Of a stretch of DNA of 64,000 nucleotides, positions 1 to 13,020 are shown one piece after another (the stretch's first letter is position 1; every line of letters begins with the position of its first letter). A model generated the notes under the pieces. It worked only from the letters and a program-made list of their open reading frames with translations. It ran no database searches and was not told where the DNA came from. The stretch is from assembly GCA_015227615.1 (NCBI GenBank), contig JAALGZ010000009.1:372001-436000 (forward strand), given 5' to 3'. This DNA is from Labyrinthula sp. Ha. Taxonomy: Eukaryota > Sar > Bigyra > Labyrinthulida > Labyrinthulaceae. A program made the translations under genes and the position numbers.

Positions 1-543
1 TAACCTGGAAGGGTGTTTAATTTTCAGTGGAGGAGAAAGAAATTAATCTAGAAAAAAGAATAATAGGTAACATAAATAAGGAAGAACATGAAGTAACTGT
101 AATCAATGCCGTAGAAAATGCTCCTGAAAATTGGCGTTTTGATCCAGGTAACATACAATTCATCAAGGGCAGGGTAGGTAAAAACTTTCCCAAAAGAAGA
201 ACGGAATGGGATGAGTTGTCAATAAGGGAACTCAAACAGATTTAGGAAAGAGATAAAATGTCTCATCATGAAAATACAAAAATAAACAATCAAGGTCTAG
301 TTGTCAGCAGAGAAAAATAGATCCTAATTCATTTTCAATATCTAGAGAAATTTATAGTGCTAGCTCATAATATTTCGAAGCACGGTAGTAATGAAGAGGT
401 AATGAGAACTTTTAAAAGAATTAGAGTTTCCTGGAGCAAGAAAGTCACTGATTCATCAGCTAGTAAGAATACTAAAGAAATTTTATCTTCACTGTGACAA
501 GGATATAAAGTTAGAAAGAAGATTTTTCAAGGAAATACCACAT

Positions 544-1407
544 GTGTCAAATGAAAATGAACTTCTATTACATTCTGATTTCTTGAAAATATATGATGGA
601 TGTTTACTTGTTTTAGTTGAACATGTTTCAAGAAAGGTTATAATGGTCCATGATAAATCAGCCAGTGCTCATGTAGTAGTGAGAGCACTCGTTAAATGGA
701 GAGCTGAAAACGGTATGCCATTGTCTTTTAAAGTATCAACGGACAATGGTTCGCATTTTTGTAACCAAATGATTAGGGATTTCAACAGAATCTACGGTGG
801 ACAACATCACTTCTCCGTAGTTTATTCTCCTTGGAATAATGGCTCTGTAGAAGTAATGAACCGCTATATTTTGCGAAATTCGCGCCAGATGTGCAGTGAA
901 TATAGTCTACCGTACGAGCAATGGCCGGGGCTGATTGATATAGTAGCAGATACAATATATAATACTCCAATTAGACAAGGATATACTCCCAATGAATTAA
1001 CTTCAATCTTCGGCAAAAAGAACAGGATGGCAGCCACAGAAGAAGGTAGTATAAAATTAATGTCCTTGGTAAAAGAAAATAAATTAATATTGGCAAAGCA
1101 TCCTGAGAGTTTTGTAAATAATTTTCGGGCTTTAGTAGATGTAGTAGAGGAAAAGAGAAGAAAAGCAATACCCCTGATAGAAAAAGATCGTAAAACGAAA
1201 AGGGATTATATAAATCGCAAATTTAAAATGTCACATGTTCAGTTTGCGTCTGGGGACTTTGTTCTAATGAGTAATGTAGGAACACCTCGGCATAAATCAA
1301 AGCTTCAGTTAAGGTGGAATGGACCATATATAGTTGAAGAAATACTGGGGACCACTACTTATAAAGCAAGAGATCTGGATGGTAAAGTTCATGTAGCTCA
1401 CCTTTAA
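544..1407 (+). mobile_element. Integrase core of the Ty3/gypsy-type element (fossil)
   Basis: The segment matches the rve-type integrase core of LTR retroelements. A TDNGSHF block and a following SPWNNGSVE block are the landmarks of the second and third catalytic positions, and the C-terminal part has the LRWNGPYIVEE pattern common just before chromodomains in gypsy integrases. In a live element this protein inserts the cDNA into the host chromosome. Here it is part of a fossil element and is read only as an identifier of the family. Confidence 0.85.
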
Positions 1408-1484
1408 CGTCTTAGCTTATATGAAGCACAACCCACGGATTTTGAAGTAACGTCAGAAATCAAGAAATCTTTTTATTATAACCA

Positions 1485-2376
1485 GGGCATTTACGAAGTA
1501 TATCGATTACTAGATATCCGGAGATCTACTGAGGTATTGGAAATTTTGGTTTGCTGGAAAGGATTTCCAAAACAAGAAGCCAATTGGCAGAGTTTTGAAT
1601 TACTTCTTCAAGACATGCCAAAAACTTTAGAAAATTATCTGAATAAGCATAAATTTGACGGAAATGATTTCACAGCTGCTTGGAATATTTTAAGGCAAAA
1701 ATTAGATCTCCCTGTAGAAACTGAAGTAAATCTTTTAAGAGAAACAATCCAGAACTATAAAACACCTTGTATAACTGAACTATGGAAAATAATATCATAT
1801 CCCAAATACCTGAAGTTGTTAAATGATCATGTATATCCCGGTCTCAATAAATCAAAAGGATGGAATCAGTTTGAGAAAGAAGTGATGCAAAAATGTGTTT
1901 TTGTTTTTGGTCTAGGTAAATGGGAGCCAATAATAAAGAACGGCTACCTGCCTGGAAAAACCCGCTCGCAACTAGTAGAATTTGTAAATGTTACCATTGG
2001 AAGTCAAAGGCTTTATGAATTTCACGGTTTGAAAATAGATCTGCAGATTTTAAAAACGTATAATGAAAATAAAACCAATGTAATTCGGAGGAACGGTGTA
2101 ATTATAAATACGGGAAAAGATTTACCTAAGACAACCTTGAGAGAAATTCGAAAACAAGTGTGGAAGGATCTTTATAATAAACAGAATTTAGGGGTAAAGC
2201 AAAAATCGATACCTCTTCTAGCAATAAAAGAGATTTCAAATCTGAAATTAAGTCTCCAAGATATCAGTAAAATAATCAAGAAATGTGAGGAAAGGACTGA
2301 AAAATCAACAATAGCAGAGATATGTGAAGTAAACAATGAAAAAAGTAGACATCTAAATTTGGAAATAAAAGAGTAG
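1485..2376 (+). mobile_element. Chromodomain-like plus Myb/SANT-like region of the retroelement (fossil)
   Basis: The first part (about 1485-1660) has the chromodomain pattern, with the WKGFPKQEANW core. In chromoviruses this module steers integration to histone-marked chromatin. The following stretch (about 1840-2010) has a Myb/SANT-like helix pattern (GWNQFEKEV, then FGLGKWEPI, then PGKTRSQL), which is known from DNA- or chromatin-binding proteins and is not a standard part of gypsy elements. The remainder to 2376 is lysine-rich and has no family I recognise. The Myb assignment is by motif only. Confidence 0.6.
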
Positions 2377-2385
2377 TCGTACCCT

Positions 2386-2670
2386 GTGTTGTTAGAGAGC
2401 GGCGCTTGGAATAGTTGTGTTGGAAGAAATTTAGTAAAAGAACAACAAATCATATCAGGAGACGAGGAACATCAAAAAATGCTAGGTTGTAAAGGTGTCT
2501 CAAGTAACAAAATAGAAGTTTTGGGATATGTAACAATAAATTACGTCTTGAAAGGGGAAAGAATATTTGTAAGAGTGAATAATATGAGATTTTATGTACT
2601 AAATTGTGCAACTAGTAAGTTCATTCTTGGAGATTGGTTAAAACGGATGAGAATAGATCCGATTAAACAA
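2386..2670 (+). mobile_element. Retropepsin-like segment downstream of integrase (fossil)
   Basis: The segment has the spacing of a retroviral-type aspartic protease: an ESGAWNS block where these enzymes carry the active-site loop, a glycine-containing beta region, and a late FILGDWL block like the ILG-D-L signature near the family's C-terminus. In Ty3/gypsy elements the protease normally precedes reverse transcriptase, so a position after the integrase and chromodomain is unusual. It may be an additional module of this lineage or the start of a second, nested element. Recognition is by pattern only. Confidence 0.45.
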
Positions 2671-2989
2671 CTTGAAGAAAAGTGTACTAAGAAGAGTAGA
2701 AATAATATAATAAATGAGGTAAGTAAGGCTTTAAAAGAGAATAAATTGATTGAATGGAAAGAATTATATAAATCTGAGATTGAAAAAATAGTATTGCGGA
2801 GAAGATATAAGGAGAAATTATCAAGCATATTGAAGGAAAAATCATCAGCAGTTAAATGGGTACCACATGGGAATCCAGGGGAATCTTTCTTTACTATAGA
2901 GATTGACAATAAATCAGAGTATAATGATCTCATCCTATGGAGGCAACTGGAGAATAGTAAATTGAAGATTGCGAACATTTTTGATCAAG

Positions 2990-3534
2990 ATTTGACAGCT
3001 TTTGGTAAATTTGGAGTTCTATTGATAGATCCGCCTTGGGGCAATCAAGCTTCCGACAGTCCAACAAGAGGACTCACAATTCATTATCCAACATTATCAG
3101 ATCAACAACTTTTGAAGATAAATTTTGGAGCTTTAATAAACGAAGGAGTAGCAGCATTGTGGGTTACCAATAATAAATATGAAGTAGGAAGAGAGCTTCT
3201 ATAAAAAAATGGCTTTAGAATGGTAGAATATGTCATATGGTGTAAGAAAACAGCTGCAGCAAGGATACATTCAAGCCAGGGTCAGTATTTAAGGCATTCC
3301 AAGGAAATTCTTTTAATCGCAATTAAATGGAAACCATTATTGTCCAAACAGCGTAGCTCAGACGTCATCATATCTAAGGTACTTCAGCAGTCCAGAAAGC
3401 CACAGGAAGTAAATGAACTATTGGAAAAGTTGGCGCCTGGAGTAAAGAGGTTGGAAATTTTTGGTAAATTTTGGAATTGTAAAAGTGGATGGTGGACTTT
3501 TTCAGGTCCATTTGAGTGGGAAAAAGAAGTTTGA
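2990..3534 (+). mobile_element. MT-A70 adenine-N6 methyltransferase-like segment in the retroelement (fossil)
   Basis: The sequence follows the METTL3-type MT-A70 catalytic fold. A DPPWG motif (the DPPW methyl-acceptor pocket of the family) is followed by a HYPTLSDQQLLKI block, an LWVTNN block, a YVIWCKK block, a YLRHSKE block, and finally a SRKPQEV - LAPG - K-LEIFGK block, the last resembling the KPDE-LSPGTRK-ELFGR signature of METTL3. The family methylates adenine N6 in RNA (METTL3/14) or DNA (AMT/MTA1, METTL4). The segment lies in the same orientation and immediately downstream of the retroelement modules. That it belongs to the element is an inference from position; it could also be a captured host gene or a neighbour. 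Confidence 0.75.
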
Positions 3535-3563
3535 TATTACTCGTGCTCTAGAAGAAGGTAGTG

Positions 3564-3990
3564 TAGGGGGAGATGGGGATCAGCACTCGTATTAGTATTT
3601 TTTTTAGGGAAATTGGTTATTTGAAGAATGGTTAGTTTATTTAATTATTTGGTAGATAAAGTGATGACGTGGAATGAGGGAAATGCAACATGAAATATAA
3701 CGATTAACGGAAGGTAACGTTAACAGAAATAGTGTACTAAGGATAAAATAGGAAGGCAGTAACAAGGAGGAGATAGAGACTACGGTAAATAATTAGCTGT
3801 AGATTAGGAGCCAGTAAGGAATAGATGGTTAACTATTAAGCAGACACTATTTAGCAAAAAACTATATAGAAAAAGAGTTAGTGTCGCCTTTTTTCTGAAG
3901 AATTTTGAACGAAATTTGAAGTAAGATAACAATTCGAGTAGAAAAATTACAGCAACCTAAATTAATAAAAGAAATACAGAAGAATACCTA
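3564..3990 (+). repeat. Possible polypurine tract and 3' LTR of the retroelement
   Basis: A G/A-rich tract (3564-3579) directly follows the last recognisable coding segment, where Ty3/gypsy elements place the polypurine tract that primes plus-strand synthesis. The next 400 bases include a TATA-like stretch (near 3868) and a cluster of TAACG-type motifs (3697-3727). No partner LTR is present in the window, so the boundary and even the LTR assignment are inference. Confidence 0.3.
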
Positions 3991-6718
3991 TTAAACACTC
4001 TATAGATGAAACAAATGATGTTAAAGCAAATAAAATGTTTAAACAGACCAGGATTTATAGCAAACATTTTTATTCATTCTGCCTGAGAAGTTCGATTAAC
4101 AAATACAAAAATTATTTATATTTTCAAATATTTATAAATATTTTGTTTTGTTATCAACGGATACGGTAGAAGCAGCAGTTGGAAACAATCATGTAGGAGA
4201 ACGGGGAAAACAAAAGATGTGAAGATATTGAAGACGCTATGGTACTCATTAGTAAACTCAATATATCTCAATTAATTAAATTCCTGGAAAGAAACAACCG
4301 ATTTTCAAATATTTAAAATTAAAAGGTGCTTGCTAATGCAAAAAGATATTCCAAAAGAATTTACATAGAAAAGGCAAACGAAGGAGCAAGATTAAAACCT
4401 CTTACTTATATAAGAACAATAAAGAAATTAAGAGACTTTGGTTAAAAGGGCAACATAGAGATGAACCCAGCTCACACAACAACAATAAAAATGAAAACTC
4501 TAAACAAACAGAATTAAAAAAGGTATATATAAAGTAAATTTTCGCATATGATGGCACAGATTTTAGAAAACAATAAAAAGACTAGAAGTAGGTGAGACTA
4601 CTGATATGTCTTCTTACCCGAGTAGAACGGGTAAGATAAGGTTTTCTGTGCGACGATGAGCTATGGGACCCCGCACTTACTTCATAGGTTACTCTCCAAG
4701 TGCAAACAGAAGAGCAAAGCAAGAAATAATCCTCTATTAGAAGAGTGAACTCTACTGCAGTAATGGTACATGTTTTGCTAACACTGTATTTTGAAAGAGG
4801 AATCTTATTTGATTTAAAGTTGATAGACCTAGGGTTTTGGGGCTGAGTTAAGAAGGGAGGTGAAATTTGAAAATCGCATTTTGAACATGAATGAGGGTCA
4901 TTGAAGTTTCAGCTAGACGAAGCGCCTACAGATCTTCTGTTTCAGCATCTTCTAACGGTATTTAGCATTTTTTATTACTTTCAACTTACTTATTAAGATG
5001 ATTCCGTGGCATTGCCAATTGAGTCCTTTCTTCTAGCCTTTACGAACGGGAGGACCTAATAAGGCTTCGCTACTCCGCCTCCAATATCTCTTCGTTCACA
5101 TCTGGCAGTAGGTCGTCCCAAGTTATCATCGGCTGTTTCCATGACATTACATTTTATTTGTATTTTTTCTCCGCAGGATAGACCTTCTAAGTTGTTAGAA
5201 GGTTGCTCTCTATATTAGGTCCAAAATCACTGTGTCTCTGTATATCTTGATTGAGGTGCTTTCAAGGTTTTTTGACTCTATGCAATATTCGTGGTCAAAT
5301 AGTTGTGCGTTCATCAAACGGGTCAATTTTCCCTCAAAGGGCCAGGGAGCGTCCCCACAATCTGAAAGGGCCTTTGATTAATATTCATTGCCTTAATGAG
5401 ATTATAGCCTAACTATTATTTGAAAGTAGCTTATTTAGGCAATATAACCCCTGGTTATCTTATTCTGGAGATAGGTAGCTAGACCAGCATCCCCGCGCAA
5501 CGCATTTGCCATTGGTATCAGGCGGTCCGCCTTCTCCACGAGTTCATATTCTACGATTTAAACATTCTTAAATTTTTTCTTCCTCCTAATAATTTCATGG
5601 TTAATGTTCCTTCCACAGACAAAGTGCCTATTGACACTTTTAAGTTCTTTGCTTCTTTCGCAGCACATAATGTGCTCGATTTGGAGCAAACCGTAAATGT
5701 TTGAAGTCATAAAAGTTAAAAGAGACTAAACACTATGCACTCGACTATGACAAGCACTAAGCTGGTTCACTCAGTGACTTTGAATCAACTCTGGGAACAG
5801 TTATTATCACTGATATATTTTTAATGAATGACAGTAGAACCTTTGCTTGATTCTGCCCAGTCTTAACTGAAAAAAAAATGGCGCTAAGGCATGACTATCT
5901 TCAAAACCAAGTGATGAAAGAAAAATGTTCTGTCGCCTAGCATTCGCTACTAACTAAATACGGTTTTCTAATAGGAAGAATTCAAACCGAAAAAAGGTTG
6001 TAATGACTAGGATTATGAACCTCAATGCCGAAGACGGGTGAAGAGGCTGTAATGGCAAATTCTCATTAGTAATAATAAATTTTCGCCTGAAAACGAGGTG
6101 ATTGGAACCATCATAGGTTTCTTTAAAGCCTCGAAGTATCACAGCCTTGTTCTGATGGTTTGAGTCCAAAGGGTTTTGCTTTGCTATTGCAACACCCCGG
6201 AGTAGAATTGGGCATAAGATCGAGGATATCGAAATAAAATCAAGGGGTAGTAGATGTTAAAGTTGAAACAATGCTAAACTATAAAGAAATGTACGTGTCT
6301 CAAGCACGTGGTGTTGCAGTGAAGGCCTAATTTGGATGGAGACGCGAAACCGAGGCAACGAATATGACAAAGAGTGCAAAAATCTCACTTCACGGGTTTT
6401 TATTCTTATACACCTAAAGCCTAAGCCTCTCATTAGCAAGTAGTCATCTTTGCTGGTCCCCATTATTTTGTATATTGTCCGTGTTAATTTGTAAATGAAA
6501 ACCTCTCTAACTCTCTAAATAGGATCTTTATTTGTATCATGGCAAGAAATATATTATGAAGCCACAGTAAGCATTATTTTAAAGAGCAGCAACTCAGAAT
6601 AATGTTCAAACTTTGATAGGAGTTAATGACAAAGAGCTGCGAAAATTTAGAATTCTGCGTTTGGCGCACTGTCACTCGAAATATGAGCTTTTTATGAAGG
6701 CAGTTTACTTCAAAAATC
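3991..6718. other. Intergenic, no gene recognised
   Basis: AT-rich DNA with frequent stops in all frames. The only structure I noted is a perfect 8-bp hairpin (4613-4635, stem CTTACCCG, 7-nt loop) within a slightly more GC-rich patch (about 4600-4730). Short open frames near 5954-6169 and 6257-6463 on the minus strand have no recognisable motif and are most likely chance. Confidence 0.5.
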
Positions 6719-7381
6719 TTAAAGAACTTCTTCATTATTTTTTTCAATCGTAGAGCTAGATTTTTTGGAAAGGTGCCCGTTTCGATTCCAATATACTAAT
6801 ACTTGTTTACCTGTATCGACTCTCAGCAAAGACAATGCGGCGTTACTTAACTTTGGAGACTGGGACCCATTAAACAGATAATGAGATGCGTACGCCTGAC
6901 TCACTGAGCCATGAGTAACTAAAATTTGGCATGACTTTTTCCCATCCTGTAATAAATTAGTACAATTTTGTACCACCTTATTGAACCGCAACGCACAGTT
7001 GTTGTCGTTCTCTGTACAAGATTCCCTTCGCTGATACACCTCTGGAAAATCTCTCTTAAGCTCATCCCATGTATGTCCCGCGAGATCTCCAATATTTCGC
7101 TCCCTTAACCCTTCTTCCATGCTTAAAACACCAATTTCTACCTCATCCAAACTTTTCTTTAACACTTGTAATACTATTTCTGCAGACTGAACAGCTCGTC
7201 CAAGGTCAGAACTAATAACTCCCACTCTCTTCAAATCATACTTTTTTATTTCTTTTACTATATAATTTGCGGATAATCGTATTTGATCTTTCCCTTTTTC
7301 TGTTAAGTTAGAGTTTTTCTGGCCTTGTAAACGGCCAATTTTATTCCATTCTGTTTCTCCATGTCTTATTAAGAAAATCAT
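6719..7381 (-). CDS. Histidine phosphatase / phosphoglycerate-mutase family protein
   Basis: A 220-residue single-exon protein of the cofactor-dependent phosphoglycerate-mutase (histidine phosphatase) superfamily. The RHGETEWN block near residues 6-13 carries the phospho-acceptor histidine (about His7). A THGSV block (about His157) supplies the second catalytic histidine, and the EGLRERNIG-LAG pattern in between is typical of the family's acid/base region. Such enzymes move or remove phosphate from sugars or other small metabolites; the substrate cannot be told from sequence. I start at the internal ATG at 7381, because the family begins right at the RHG strand. An upstream ATG at 7468 in the same frame would add 29 residues and overlap the neighbouring ATPase gene. 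It is divergent from the SERCA gene with about 60 bp between starts. Confidence 0.85.
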   Translation of the reverse strand: MIFLIRHGETEWNKIGRLQGQKNSNLTEKGKDQIRLSANYIVKEIKKYDLKRVGVISSDLGRAVQSAEIVLQVLKKSLDEVEIGVLSMEEGLRERNIGDLAGHTWDELKRDFPEVYQRRESCTENDNNCALRFNKVVQNCTNLLQDGKKSCQILVTHGSVSQAYASHYLFNGSQSPKLSNAALSLLRVDTGKQVLVYWNRNGHLSKKSSSTIEKNNEEVL

Positions 7382-7443
7382 AGTAGAGTAATTTTGGGCA
7401 ATTGTACTAAGGACGTGGCAAAAGGAAAAAGAGCAGCCTTGTA
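7382..7443. promoter_or_regulatory. Short divergent promoter between phosphatase and SERCA genes
   Basis: Only 62 bases separate the two chosen start codons, so the transcription signals of both genes must lie here or inside the opposing coding regions. I see no clear TATA element. Inference from gene layout only. Confidence 0.4.
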
Positions 7444-10400
7444 ATGATGCATTCCATACAGACTCCATGGTTTGACAGCCCGCAAGAAGTTATAGATGAA
7501 TTAAAGTCTAACATTAACACTGGATTAGATTCTGAAGAGTCATTCTCTAGATTGTCGATCTACGGACCCAACGAGCTACCTCAGAAACCACGTAACTTGA
7601 TTTTTGAGGTTTATGCTCTTAGCTACATCCTTTTGGAAACTAGTTGCCAAACAGTTCGAGGATCTTTTGGTACATTCTGCTCTTACTCTTAATTTTAGGT
7701 GCTTATTCTTCTAGGAGCTGCTATAATCTCGTTCATACTTGCACTTTTTGAGGATGCAGGTTCATCTTTCTGCTCAATATAATTTATAGAAGACAGAGTA
7801 ACTGCCTTTGTTGAACCTGTGGTTATTCTGTTAATTCTTATTGCAAATGCTTGTGTTGGTGTAGTACAGGAAACTAATGCGGAAAAAGCTATCACCTCAT
7901 TGAAACGCTACGAAGCAAGTAACTGTGAAGTTCTGAGAGACGGAATAAAATCAAAGCTTCCAGCAACAGGATTAGTTCCGGGTGACATAGTTTATGTTTC
8001 TGTAGGTGATAAGGTTCCAGCTGATTGTCGTTTGGTTGCAATTTATTCAAGCATATTAACAGCGGATCAAAGTATTCTCACTGGTGAATCTGACAGTGTT
8101 GAAAAAACTGTGGATAAACTACCTAAGGACAACATTTCCCCCTCTATTCAAAATATAAAGGAGAGAAATAATGAATCTTCTTCACCCCTGCGACAAAGGT
8201 CTGTATCAGTTGAAAAGACCCTTTATGATAGGAAGCAAAATATGTCAACAAGAAGCCTTGTTAACCAGGATAAGACAAATATACTCTTCTCTGGAACTCT
8301 GATTACAGCTGGAAAAGCCTGCGCCGTAGTGCTTGAAACTGGAACTTCCACTGCTATTGGCAAAATCCATGTTTCTCTTCAGCAGGATGATGATGATGAA
8401 GATACCCCTCCTACCCCACTCAAGCAGCAACTTGATAAGTTTGGAGAACAGTTATCAAAGTTGATTGGGGTTATCTGCGTTTTAGTCTGGCTAATTAACA
8501 TTGGAAATTTCGATGATCCAAGTTTTGGTGGAGTTTTCAACGGAGCAGTATACTACTTCAAGATTGCTGTTGCTTTGGCAGTAGCAGCCGTACCAGAGGG
8601 ATTACCTGCAGTTGTCACTACCTGTTTAGCTTTAGGCACCAGGCAAATGGCGAAAGAAGGAGCAATTGTTAGAACTTTGGATTCAGTAGAGACACTTGGT
8701 TGTACGACTGTTATATGTGTGGATAAGACTGGAACTTTAACAACCAATAAGATGTGTTGTCAGAAGACTGTTATCTTTAGCGAAGAAACGCCAAGGAAAG
8801 GTTCTGGGGAAGAGATTAGGCTGACTTGTGCTAGTATAGATGTAGCTTTTGATCAAGATTCTTATAAACCAAGTGGTGCTGTTATGTATACAAAGTCTGG
8901 CAGGAAGGTAATGCTTGAAGATCATCGAGCTCTGAGAGAGATGGTAAAAATAGGTTCGTTGTGTAACGAGGCGGATGTAGTTAAGGGTGAAGACGATGGT
9001 CTTTGGAAACGTATTGGAGAGCCCACCGAAGCTGCTATAAGGGTGTTTTCCGAAAAACTTTGGAATTCTCAGGAAAGCAGCGATCGTGAGGTATCGGCAA
9101 AAAAATATTGGTCCGACGAATATAGCTTAGAGCACACCCTTGAGTTTACTCGAGAAAGGAAATCAATGTCCGTGGCTTGTCGTCACAGGCTTCACGATCA
9201 GGAAACTTTGGTGTTGTTTACAAAAGGAGCTCCCGAATCTCTTATATCTCGCTCTACTAATATAATGCTACAAACTGGGCATATTGAGCTCTTAACTGAG
9301 TCTATGAAAAAATATATCCTAGGCGAAGTCGAGCTACTTTGCAATAAAGGCTTACGTTGTTTAGCCCTTTGCAGGGGAACTTTTGATGCGAAAAAGGTAT
9401 TAAACCTGCGTAACAGGGAGCATTTCGAAGAGATTGAGCAGCACCTAACATTTATTGGTATTGTTGGAATTTCCGACCCAGTTAGGGAGAGCGCGAAGGA
9501 AACAATTCGTCAGTGTAAGTTAGCTGGGGTGCGAATTGTTGTCTTAACAGGTGACAACCAAGTGACTGCTAAGGCAGTGTGTACGGAGTTAGGCCTAATT
9601 AGTGACAGGTTTCTTGACGCAAAGTTTGGGAGCAAGTTTAACTACTTTAAAGATGTGGGTCCTGAAGATGACTTAGAAAATTCTCCCTTTTTATCTACTG
9701 GATCAACTGAGGTTTCAGGTTTACAATGGGAAAGTATGAGTGGCTCGAAAAGGTTGAATCAAGTTCAATCATTGGTTTGTATGTCTAGAGTAGAGCCTAA
9801 GCATAAGTTGGAAGTTGTCCGCTTACTTGAGCAGTCTAATGAAGTTGTGGCAATGCTTGGAGATGGTGTTAATGACGCCCCAGCACTGAAAAAGGCGGAT
9901 ATTGGGGTTGCTATGGGATCCGGAACGTCTGTGGCTAAAGAGGCAAGTGATCTGGTATTGCTAGACGATAATTTTTCTACAATTATTTCGGCAGTTCGAC
10001 ATGGGAGAGCAATATTTGCAAATACAAAACAGTTTATTAGGTATTTAGTCTCAAGCAATATTGGAGAAGTCTGCTGCATCTTTTTTGCTGCTGCCCTTGG
10101 TATTCCTGAGGTGCTTACACCAGTACAACTACTTTGGGTGAATTTTGTGACAGATGGACTTCCAGCCACTGCCCTTTCATTTAATAAACCAGAGCGGAGA
10201 TCAATGCTACAGAAACCTAGAGGGAGAAACGAAGGAATTATCAATAACTTTACCGCGTTTCGATATGCAATTATTGGTTTGTATGTTGGCGTCGCCGTGG
10301 TTTTAGGATTTGTGTGGTGGTTTGTAAGTTTCGAGGGTGGGCCTCAGGTGACTTTTTCAGAGCTATGCAATTGGCAAAGTTGTGAAGGGGCTCAATGCCA

Positions 10401-10773
10401 AGTTTTTAAGAAGGACGGAGCTTCAACTGTTGGTTTGTCAATTCTTGTTATGATAGAGATGCTGAACGCATTTAATTCACTCTCAGAGAAAGAAAGCTTA
10501 CTTCATATCACTCCATTCTCTAATCCCTGGTTGATTGGTGCCGTTGCTCTTTCAGTTCTGCTTCACTGCCTTATTTTATACATTCCAAGCTTTGCATCAA
10601 TTTTTGGAGTTACTCCACTTTCGTTCAGAGAATGGCAGGCAGTAATCTATTTTTCGCTGCCAGTTATCATGATTGATGAGATTGTTAAGATTTTCGCGCG
10701 AAGGGGTTTGGAGACGAGTTATGCGAACTTTTGCGGGAGTAGCAAACCGACACAGTTGAAAAACAGGTTGTAG
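7444..10773 (+). CDS. SERCA-type Ca2+-transporting P-type ATPase (P2A)
   Basis: Exons 7444-7591, 7623-7669, 7699-7759 and 7790-10773 join in frame to 1079 residues. The introns are 31, 29 and 30 nt and all lie in the first 350 bases. The splices restore the SERCA N-terminus (FWKLVAKQFEDLL, then the first membrane helices). Landmarks: TGES in the actuator domain (about 183), PEGLPA in M4 (about 354), phosphorylated Asp in DKTGTLT (about 397), TGDN (about 672), GDGVNDAPALK (about 775), and the M6 signature NFVTDGLPATAL. These are the residues of endoplasmic-reticulum/vacuole type Ca2+ pumps that move Ca2+ out of the cytosol using ATP. The protein is somewhat longer than animal SERCA1 (about 1000 residues), partly through a polar, serine-rich insert of roughly 50 residues after TGES (about 8105-8270). 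Confidence in function is high; the membrane compartment is inferred from the family. Confidence 0.96.
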
Positions 10774-10910: not shown

Positions 10911-12884
10911 TTACAGATCCATAGCTTCATTGGAGGGAAAACTAAACATCTTACTGCTTTTCTGATTGACGTTTAGGTTAATAGATCCAAAGTCGCTAGC
11001 TTTCTGAAAGCCACCCCAACACATACCCCTACTCGTAGTCTTGTCTGTGTAATCATTTTCTGGAGTAAAGGGTTCGGAGTCTGAAGAATTAGTAAGGTCA
11101 ACGCAGGTTTTTTCTACCTTTTCCCTCTCTTCTCGTTCTCTCTTTTCTGCAGCAAACGTCGGCACGGTTCCCTGCCAAGGCCAATTCATGCTACCTGAGT
11201 AATCAGTTCTTCGTTCAGCATCGTAGATAATTCTCTTGTTCCTATCAAGCAATACAGTGCGCGCCTCATTAATCCGTCCAATCATATTCTCTGCTCGGGC
11301 TTTGTCTTCTTCATTGAGATTATTCTTGTCAGGATGAAAACGCAGACTCATTTTTTTGAAATTTCGTTTGATTTCATCTTCACCAGCTCTTGGTTGAACC
11401 CCAAGAACCTGATAATGTGAGGCATGCCTACAAATAGAAGCTTGTTTTCGTTCAGTTTCGAAACCTTGGAGAGTGGAAAAGAGAGATTCCGCAGAGTCAA
11501 AATTGAACAAGTTTAGATGTATTCTTGCTTCAAGTTCAGCTGCACGATGATAAGTCTTCCCACTTACCTCCCTATGTAGCTTACTCGCCACCTGTGCGTC
11601 CTTCAGCCCCCGAACTAGAAAACCAAGTTCATGAAGAACTGTTGCCCGATTAAAATACAATGTGGAAAGTGATATTTTTGCGTCTGATATTTTTGGCAAA
11701 CAATTCATCGGGATGTCTAGTTGTTTCAGAATGCCAGCAACTTTTAAACATGAATCACCGCCATATCGAGATATTTCATCAATAGTCTGCGTGAGTTCAT
11801 TAACATCTCCGGAAGAATGAAGCTTGAGCTTCTCAAGGATAAAAATAGCAACAGTAAACAGAACCAAAGCATTTGAATGGTCCTTTAAGCTGTTGAAATA
11901 AATACCTTGTTTTGTGGTATTCCAGAACATGACAGTAGGATCTCGAAACAACGATACAACTGTGTGAGGATTTGGATTGTAAAACTTTCTTCTCCCGTCT
12001 GTCAAAGGAACCTTTTTGAATTGGCATCCATTCTCCAAGAGCAGCTTTGCGCAGCTGTAAGAGTCGTGTTTAACACAAGTCTCAAGTGGCAATAGTTTAC
12101 CGTCACGAGTGTTGCATTCTTTATTGAGCAAGTACCGCATAGTTGGTTCAAGCTTCTTTATAACTTGCTCAAGCTCAGGAAATCTGTTTTTGGAGCAAAG
12201 GTGATGTAAGTCTTCTGACTTAATAGGAGGTCTGGCTCGAAGTAACAAATCAAAAACACCAAGATCAATCGACGTACCTTCTTTCCAGCGATCTAACCCC
12301 AGAATAAAAGACGACAAGACTTCACCTAGGAATCGCCGCACTTCTCGTAAGACATGGTTGCTTCCTTCATTTTCTGAACTGGATGAACCCTTGGATAGTG
12401 TCTTGTTGTCGTAAAGTGGTTGCAGAAAGTTCCTGATTAGGACAGTGTATCCATTTTTAACTGCATGTTTAAAATCAGAAGCCGATATGTCAATAGAACT
12501 GTATGTTTCATTGTTTTTCAAAGCAAGGTCATCAAACTTAAAGACCTGCTCTTCGTCCCGTGACGTATAGAGTTTGTTTTTTAATGTTTTTAACTCCTCT
12601 TCAGCTCGGCACGCTTTAATCTTAAGATACAAAACTTCTTCATTATGTGCTCTTTTTAGAGAACTTGTTTCTCTCGTAAGAGAAAACTTAGGTTTGGATT
12701 CCAATTGAGCAAGTTTGCGCTTCAACGCTTTGTTCTCTGCTGACACAGATGAAAGCATGGAAAGCTTTTTCCTAAGAAAATCCAATTCTTTCTCATATTC
12801 AGACTCCACTTCTAGCAGACAATCGGCCATTGACCCCAACTTGGAGCATATCTTCCTTAGAGGTTTCTTATTGCTTCTTTTCAT
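10911..12884 (-). CDS. J-domain cochaperone with coiled coil, ankyrin-like and TPR-like regions
   Basis: Single-exon protein of 657 residues. Order of parts: a basic start, a heptad-rich coiled coil (about 15-105), an ankyrin-like stretch (around LLPLETCVKHDSYSCAKLLL), helical TPR-like repeats (around YFNSLKDHSNALVLFTVAIF and YFNRATVLHELGFLVRGLKD), and a J domain at about 489-560 with the HPD triad (about 517-519) that stimulates Hsp70 ATPase. TPR plus J domain recalls DNAJC7/TPR2, which passes clients between Hsp70 and Hsp90, but the ankyrin and coiled-coil N-terminus is different, so I do not claim orthology. A charged Lys/Glu helix and a serine-rich tail follow the J domain. It converges on the SERCA gene. 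The start at 12884 is the first Met of an uninterrupted frame; an upstream mini-exon cannot be excluded. Confidence 0.85.
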   Translation of the reverse strand: MKRSNKKPLRKICSKLGSMADCLLEVESEYEKELDFLRKKLSMLSSVSAENKALKRKLAQLESKPKFSLTRETSSLKRAHNEEVLYLKIKACRAEEELKTLKNKLYTSRDEEQVFKFDDLALKNNETYSSIDISASDFKHAVKNGYTVLIRNFLQPLYDNKTLSKGSSSSENEGSNHVLREVRRFLGEVLSSFILGLDRWKEGTSIDLGVFDLLLRARPPIKSEDLHHLCSKNRFPELEQVIKKLEPTMRYLLNKECNTRDGKLLPLETCVKHDSYSCAKLLLENGCQFKKVPLTDGRRKFYNPNPHTVVSLFRDPTVMFWNTTKQGIYFNSLKDHSNALVLFTVAIFILEKLKLHSSGDVNELTQTIDEISRYGGDSCLKVAGILKQLDIPMNCLPKISDAKISLSTLYFNRATVLHELGFLVRGLKDAQVASKLHREVSGKTYHRAAELEARIHLNLFNFDSAESLFSTLQGFETERKQASICRHASHYQVLGVQPRAGEDEIKRNFKKMSLRFHPDKNNLNEEDKARAENMIGRINEARTVLLDRNKRIIYDAERRTDYSGSMNWPWQGTVPTFAAEKREREEREKVEKTCVDLTNSSDSEPFTPENDYTDKTTSRGMCWGGFQKASDFGSINLNVNQKSSKMFSFPSNEAMDL

Positions 12885-13020
12885 TTGTGATTCGCTTGTT
12901 AGAATATATTCTAGATGTGCATCATTTTGGGTAATTTTCAGGAGCAGCTCCTACAAGAAAACAAACACAGCTTCTGTACTTTCATCACTTGTATATAGAC
13001 CAAGAGGAACCAACATAATA

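Follow-up and report, generated by a model that had tools for sequence, protein, structure and literature searches.

The window analyzed here, a 64,000-nucleotide stretch of the Labyrinthula sp. Ha genome (contig JAALGZ010000009.1, positions 372,001 to 436,000; C143:372001-436000 in an assembly that totals 50.8 Mb over 153 contigs), opens with the 3' half of a Ty3/gypsy long terminal repeat (LTR) retrotransposon that appears to carry relatives of two subunits of a DNA adenine methyltransferase complex behind its integrase and chromodomain. This half occupies positions 1-4004 of the forward strand; the element is complete but broken, and gives a 75% alignment to the LTR-flanked copy L014 over window positions 1-3905. 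Its 3' LTR (TGT...ATA; 3562-4004, forward strand) is 97.7% identical over 442 bp to a 5' LTR that starts at L098:34, in a stretch reaching ~4 kb ahead of the window, and the whole element spans C143:368033-376004 (7,972 bp). The target-site duplication GATG lies at 4005-4008, with a second GATG directly ahead of the 5' LTR. An earlier note on this DNA had placed the feature at 1800-3534; position 3534 is the stop of the polyprotein, but the element begins ~4 kb before the window and extends through the 3' LTR, which ends at 4004.

As that note had stated, an integrase, a chromodomain, a Myb/SANT-like segment and an MT-A70 segment follow one another on one strand, the forward one. The integrase core (rve, 601-831; residues 66-142 of the frame 406-1404; Pfam PF00665, E = 2.2e-7) and the chromodomain (1492-1644; residues 29-79 of the frame 1408-2373; PF00385, E = 2.7e-5) both score slightly below the curated Pfam cut-offs (31.5 bits vs 32.6 and 24.4 bits vs 25.1, respectively). 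The Myb/SANT segment (1834-2157, forward strand) has no Myb match in the Pfam scan; it is matched at 1852-2127 by the p1 protein in a search of the genome (E = 2.7e-17), and is 83% identical to the Myb segment of one long-frame copy. Behind it, at approximately 2320-2690 on the forward strand by alignment to L014, lies a retropepsin-like protease remnant, recognized through the homologous segments of six other copies. Its position between Myb and MT-A70 is unusual, and in the window copy the active-site Asp is replaced by Glu (LLESGA at 2389). The MT-A70 domain (3010-3498, forward strand; PF05063) has DPPW at 3028 and PTRG at 3061, and is split by a stop into two Pfam matches (E = 5e-8 and 1e-15), both above the cut-off. 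The motifs DPPWG, YPTLSD, LWVTNN, LRHSKE and LAPG are all found in the window. In-frame stops stand at 243-245, 1405-1407, 2374-2376 and 3202-3204, the last being the TAA inside MT-A70, and the reading frame shifts between 245 and 406.

A genome search with PF05063 gave 150 scored matches out of 354 candidates, one of which is the host's own AMT1, and many of them sit in open frames of 1,700-2,660 aa. We fetched 20 copies, picked among these matches for long frames. The MT-A70 motif was at the C-terminal end of the pol frame in all 20, the frames measuring 1,756-2,567 aa (two extend past the fetched stretch). Direct LTRs, 93-100% identical by self-comparison, surrounded the unit in 14 copies (two were cut by the stretch edge), and were not found in the other six within the fetched stretch, which was short for some. 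A 4-bp target-site duplication was present for 9 of 13 LTR pairs tested, that of the window included; for each pair, between one and four combinations of ends were tried. One LTR pair lacks any difference. The term fossil, used in the earlier note, thus suits the broken window copy but not the family as a whole. Pfam scans of six pol frames returned the order RVT_1, RNase H, rve, Chromo, MT-A70 each time, with RVT_1 and RT_RNaseH above their cut-offs in all six, rve above in two and below in four, and Chromo present in all six (E from 3e-8 to 0.012; two below the curated cut-off). No cytosine methyltransferase family appeared in these scans, MT-A70 being listed instead.

The same order recurs across the genome, and is therefore more than a chance arrangement. 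Counts for rve, p1-like and RNase H matches cover the listed matches only, 150 of each. For 116 of the p1-like matches a listed MT-A70 match follows on the same strand at a distance of 0.66-1.5 kb; the other 34, two of which are the host p1 genes, have no listed MT-A70 within 2.5 kb on either strand. The rve matches pair with a same-strand listed MT-A70 located 2.0-2.7 kb downstream in 36 cases, and with one on the opposite strand, less than 4 kb away, in a single case. Five of the 114 rve matches lacking a listed MT-A70 were fetched, and three proved to be Ty3 elements with an MT-A70 and a Myb segment recognized by eye, in one uninterrupted frame in one element and in a broken frame in two; the remaining two are Ty1/copia elements lacking MT-A70. 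The dispersed copies in uniform order and orientation, with flanking repeats, that the earlier note had asked about are thus present. The note had also raised the case that would undo its proposal, namely that the MT-A70 segment is a single-copy host relic, orthologous to a METTL gene, beside an unrelated retroelement. We reject that explanation, whose probability we consider negligible: the segment is multi-copy, enclosed by LTRs, in frame with pol and constant in order and strand, and a separate host AMT1 exists elsewhere (L008:1027-2010, E = 3.7e-73 to MTA1).

Two further properties of the polyprotein vary among copies. Pfam detects a zinc knuckle in the gag-side frame of L026, and 12 of the 20 copies have a zinc-knuckle motif in frame with pol. 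In L009, L021, L026 and L027 the gag-side and pol frames are in the same phase with one stop codon between them, which suggests stop-codon readthrough; the remaining copies have a single uninterrupted frame. The protease is likewise variable in position. Nine of the 20 copies (L009-L017; e.g. L014:6408-6785) have a retropepsin motif between Myb and MT-A70, five (L018, L019, L020, L024 and L025) have it ahead of reverse transcriptase (RT), and motif search found none in six. The displaced segment of six non-window copies matched Pfam gag-asp_proteas in all six (E up to 1, best 3e-6) and RVP in five (best E = 5e-7); it also matched a retroviral-like aspartic protease in PDB (E = 3e-4) and, by hhalign, the group C proteases found ahead of RT (probability 97.4, E = 1.3e-11).

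The primer-binding stretch behind the 5' LTRs is palindromic by eye (e.g. L014:584-600 and L019:1218-1235, with TATTGAATTCAATA across the LTR end), and these stretches mostly lack a clear tRNA-type TGG start. Self-priming of the element is conceivable.

The Myb segment was compared with known proteins through a profile (A3) built from 11 element segments, that of the window included. The best PDB match was p1 of the Tetrahymena MTA1 complex (7f4l_E; E = 2.2e-25) over 98 residues, extending well past the Myb core and covering both features of the p1 family, the Myb/homeobox-like domain and the conserved stretch behind it. The next protein was SNAPC4 (E = 2e-12), and the complex subunit p2 followed with E = 3e-3. 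Pfam Myb_DNA-binding reached only 6 of the 11 segments (best E = 3e-6). When p1 was searched against the genome, the top matches were two stand-alone host genes (45% and 47% identity), followed by element segments. The Myb-type, DNA-binding character that the earlier note had assigned therefore holds, but a generic SANT domain does not describe the segment, which by these similarities is homologous to p1, a DNA-binding subunit of the MTA1/AMT1 complex that writes N6-methyladenine (6mA) into DNA. Passages of published work report that p1 aids DNA binding within the MTA1 complex (PMC9852454) and that the presence of p1 and p2 is confined to cases where AMT1 is present too (PMC12695648). An interaction of Mta1 and Mta9 with a Myb-like P1 is reported for the fungus Rhizopus (PMC13297926).

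The affiliation of the MT-A70 domain was examined in 83 sampled domains: 60 genome segments, the 20 copies, the window, L034 and L035, the 60 segments being every second of 128 further matches (64) less four not included. Clustering at 90% identity reduced the 83 to 54 lineages. An insert P[TV]RG behind DPPW is common to the elements and Tetrahymena MTA1 and is missing from METTL3, and all 83 sampled domains show the permissive pattern P-x-R-G. Once the insert is removed, all 54 distinct element domains still score the host AMT1 above METTL3, and 52 of 54 score Tetrahymena MTA1 above METTL3. In a tree without METTL4 and the bacterial long branches, one side consists of the elements together with P0006 and the metagenome protein P0008 (93/90, not starred); METTL3 pairs with METTL14 (98/93), and support for a group of the AMT1 proteins is weak (65/58), with the root unsure; the references for this tree do not include AMT6/7 or AMT2/5. 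The elements are not one clade when P0008 is excluded (p-AU 0.036), because P0008 nests inside them. When METTL4 is included, its long branch lands among the elements. A structure predicted from seven sequences (P0003 first) reached pLDDT 74 and pTM 0.76, the single-sequence model being useless (pLDDT 33). The earlier note's identification as MT-A70 is borne out, but its METTL3 type is disfavored by the AMT1-type insert and by similarity with the insert removed; by insert, similarity and tree the domain is most probably AMT1/MTA1-like, of the DNA 6mA type.

A very divergent element MT-A70 at L103 (G000:C104:176500-177600) keeps DPPW and has no P-x-R-G insert. No clear host METTL3 or METTL14 orthologue was found in a six-frame search, in which introns could conceal such genes.

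These assignments bear on whether the substrate might be RNA. An enzyme acting like METTL3 could place N6-methyladenosine (m6A) on the element's own RNA to hide or stabilize it, and the MT-A70 fold, together with near-equal phmmer scores for MTA1 and METTL3 with one element domain, is compatible with that idea. It is nonetheless improbable, since the insert, similarity and tree are of AMT1 type and the neighbouring Myb segment is related to p1, a DNA-binding subunit that passages of PMC12695648 report only alongside AMT1. With the MT-A70 domain AMT1-like and the Myb segment p1-like, the element would fuse relatives of two subunits of one 6mA writer.

We next consider the history of the two parts. 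Trees of RT-RNase H and of MT-A70 for 16 elements share groups (Mantel r = 0.80, p = 1e-4, 9,999 permutations). The 11 element Myb segments separate from three p1 proteins as a single clade (99/97), with groups as in the RT and MT-A70 trees. In the RT tree, support for grouping the elements apart from six other Ty3 rows is weak (58/83); the outgroup row P0017 is badly cut with a very long branch and is not part of the element distances. Because the RT, Myb and MT-A70 trees are congruent, a single uptake of the p1-like and MT-A70 parts, in a common ancestor of the elements, followed by inheritance with pol is most likely. As far as sequence can tell, it is close to certain that the family is a chromodomain-bearing Ty3/gypsy lineage whose pol reads RT - RNase H - integrase - chromodomain - p1-like Myb - MT-A70, ending in relatives of the DNA-binding (p1) and catalytic (AMT1/MTA1) subunits of a 6mA writer, with gag in the same frame in many copies. 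The central proposal of the earlier note, a Ty3/gypsy lineage with its own MT-A70 and Myb module, is upheld, the MT-A70 being multi-copy, enclosed by LTRs and in frame with pol, with a tree that matches that of RT.

Selection on the domains was estimated as the ratio of nonsynonymous to synonymous substitution rates (dN/dS) for 14 pairs, two of which (L012-L014 and L013-L014) were informative, being close yet changed enough. In these two, dN/dS was 0.05-0.06 for MT-A70, 0.05-0.06 for RT, 0.11-0.12 for Myb and 0.15-0.25 for the linker; in these pairs MT-A70 is thus under purifying selection level with RT. Nearly identical pairs had scattered ratios, that for MT-A70 being undefined in L011-L012, and most of the remaining pairs were saturated. 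The catalytic Asp is present in 83 of 83 sampled domains. The second motif residue is Pro in 80, the third is Pro in 72, and the fourth is W in 66, Y in 15, F in 1 and G in 1; the Arg and Asn that contact S-adenosylmethionine are found in 79 and 78 domains, respectively.

Conservation of this kind could also be read in terms of integration targeting, the p1-like Myb and MT-A70 serving mainly to tether the integrase to chromatin handled by AMT1, such as 6mA-marked gene starts, as a second reader beside the chromodomain, with catalysis secondary. The module does lie directly behind integrase and chromodomain, and in some lineages the motif changes while the whole domain is conserved, as in the DPAW pair L009-L010, in which MT-A70 is 72% identical and the linker 52%. 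We regard this explanation as unlikely, given that an invariant catalytic Asp and a dN/dS as low as that of RT in the two informative pairs exceed what a binding fold would need. The altered motifs, and the presence of host copies of both AMT1 and p1, would also fit a role in interference, in which the element proteins titrate or poison the host AMT1 complex and lower host 6mA with little methylation of their own. Retention of DPPW in most of the 83 domains and the enzyme-like constraint in two pairs make such a role very unlikely.

Our preferred interpretation is that the element marks its own DNA. Following proteolysis, the p1 module would bring the methyltransferase to the element's own cDNA or fresh insertion, where host partners (an MTA9-like protein and p2) would perhaps complete the complex. 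The enzyme would methylate adenines on element DNA, and the new copy would be marked as active, permissive chromatin, such that silencing is avoided and expression favored. We propose a permissive mark because passages of PMC12695648 associate AMT1-type 6mA with transcriptionally permissive chromatin in other eukaryotes that have AMT1. We put the probability of the identity of the family and self-marking, taken together, at roughly 60%; the p1-guided mechanism itself stands at about even odds. A broader formulation, held tentatively and at slightly under an even chance, is that a captured two-part 6mA writer (p1 and AMT1) has been kept working through dozens of lineages and writes a self-inherited active-chromatin mark on the element's DNA and perhaps also on that of the host, which would be parasitism by a permissive mark and not escape from a repressive one.

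Several observations weigh against self-marking. ApT is the target of AMT1, and the LTRs are not enriched for it (mean observed/expected 0.80 in 10 LTRs vs 0.85 in the rest of the window). The motif is altered in some of the 83 domains (third residue Ala in 9 and Leu in 2; fourth Tyr in 15, Phe in 1 and Gly in 1; second other than Pro in 3), and lineages with altered DPPW may have weak or inactive enzymes, like the NALW of MTA9. Of the last two S-adenosylmethionine contacts of MTA1, Asn370 corresponds to Asn in 18 of 83 domains and Glu371 to Glu in 38 of 83, many segments ending there. Three other pairs, nearly identical or saturated, had higher MT-A70 dN/dS (0.27 in L011-L013, 0.18 in L019-L020 and 0.15 in a third), with few changes or saturated dS. 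The phmmer scores mentioned above, for one L014-type domain, were a near tie (111 bits for MTA1 vs 110 bits for human METTL3). Finally, Ty1/copia and perhaps one Ty3 lineage lack the module, which is thus not essential for retrotransposition in this genome.

The evidence for non-carriers is as follows. MT-A70 is absent from the two Ty1/copia copies examined in the same genome (L036 and L037), and from 1.2-kb slices of L101 (G000:C103:161800-163000) and L102 (C81:381300-382500), which are among the highest-scoring Ty3 RNase H copies and perhaps represent one Ty3 lineage without the module. Among the 150 listed Ty3 RNase H matches, 77 have MT-A70 downstream (74 listed and three in fetched loci), 6 have a p1-like segment alone and 67 have neither; carriage by every Ty3 copy is therefore not borne out. 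Slices of three of these 67 were read, namely L101, L102 and the divergent L103, which does have an MT-A70. Since carriers and non-carriers share one genome, they offer a natural test of the effect of 6mA on the chromatin fate of transposons.

Ty3/gypsy chromoviruses have LTRs and the order RT-RNase H-integrase-chromodomain, as does the element described here, which differs from them in adding the p1-like and MT-A70 parts and, in 9 of 20 copies, in having the protease behind Myb and not before RT. Passages of PMC5890265 describe transposons that captured cytosine methylases, namely Dnmt enzymes in Gypsy, DIRS and LINE elements, as well as transposons with bacterial Dam-like adenine methylases. 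According to the same passages, KnitGypsy-Dnmt3 of Klebsormidium nitens resembles our element in joining a Gypsy pol to a captured host DNA methyltransferase with conserved key residues under purifying selection. It differs in that its enzyme is an unrelated C5-cytosine Dnmt3 and its repeats are DIRS-like, whereas the Labyrinthula element has adenine AMT1-like and p1-like parts; these passages describe no partner subunit of the KnitGypsy-Dnmt3 methylase. DIRS retrotransposons, as cited there, also encode an N6-adenine methyltransferase, but theirs is a bacterial Dam-like enzyme, in contrast to the eukaryotic MT-A70/AMT1-like domain and p1-like module of this Ty3/gypsy element. The Tetrahymena MTA1 complex (MTA1, MTA9, p1 and p2) shares with the element an MT-A70 with P-x-R-G insert and DPPW, and a Myb/homeobox-like p1 module, but consists of four separate host proteins in the passages of PMC9852454, whereas the p1-like and MTA1-like parts of the element are fused in cis behind the integrase. 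The fusion also hints at the set of subunits that is sufficient for targeting.

A retrotransposon with MT-A70 was not found in the titles and abstract openings of the open-access literature searched, or in passages of PMC12695648, PMC13297926 and PMC11065753, three papers that contain both words; the terms MT-A70 and Myb do not occur in a 2019 paper on accessory domains of retrotransposon polyproteins (PMC6338049). The pairing of p1-like and AMT1-like modules in a retroelement was likewise not found in the open-access literature searched. In passages of a 2025 survey of 231 eukaryotes, MT-A70 families are called relatively static (PMC12695648). This contrasts with the present case, in which one genome holds 150 scored matches of 354 candidates and 54 lineages among 83 domains, and in which elements may write their own epigenetic marks.

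Related sequences were also found outside the assembly. Two EukProt proteins share the element architecture and are probably from the same species. The metagenome protein P0008 (ENA, 817-bp contig), nested inside the element clade, may be an element fragment, and related elements may therefore exist in other organisms. Two single-protein scans of viral contigs recovered no member of the element family.

Host genes with long open frames, in which no introns were seen, adjoin the element in the window: a histidine phosphatase (6722-7489, minus strand), a 996-aa frame at 7783-10773 that is P-type ATPase-like by eye, and a DnaJ protein (10914-12950, minus strand).

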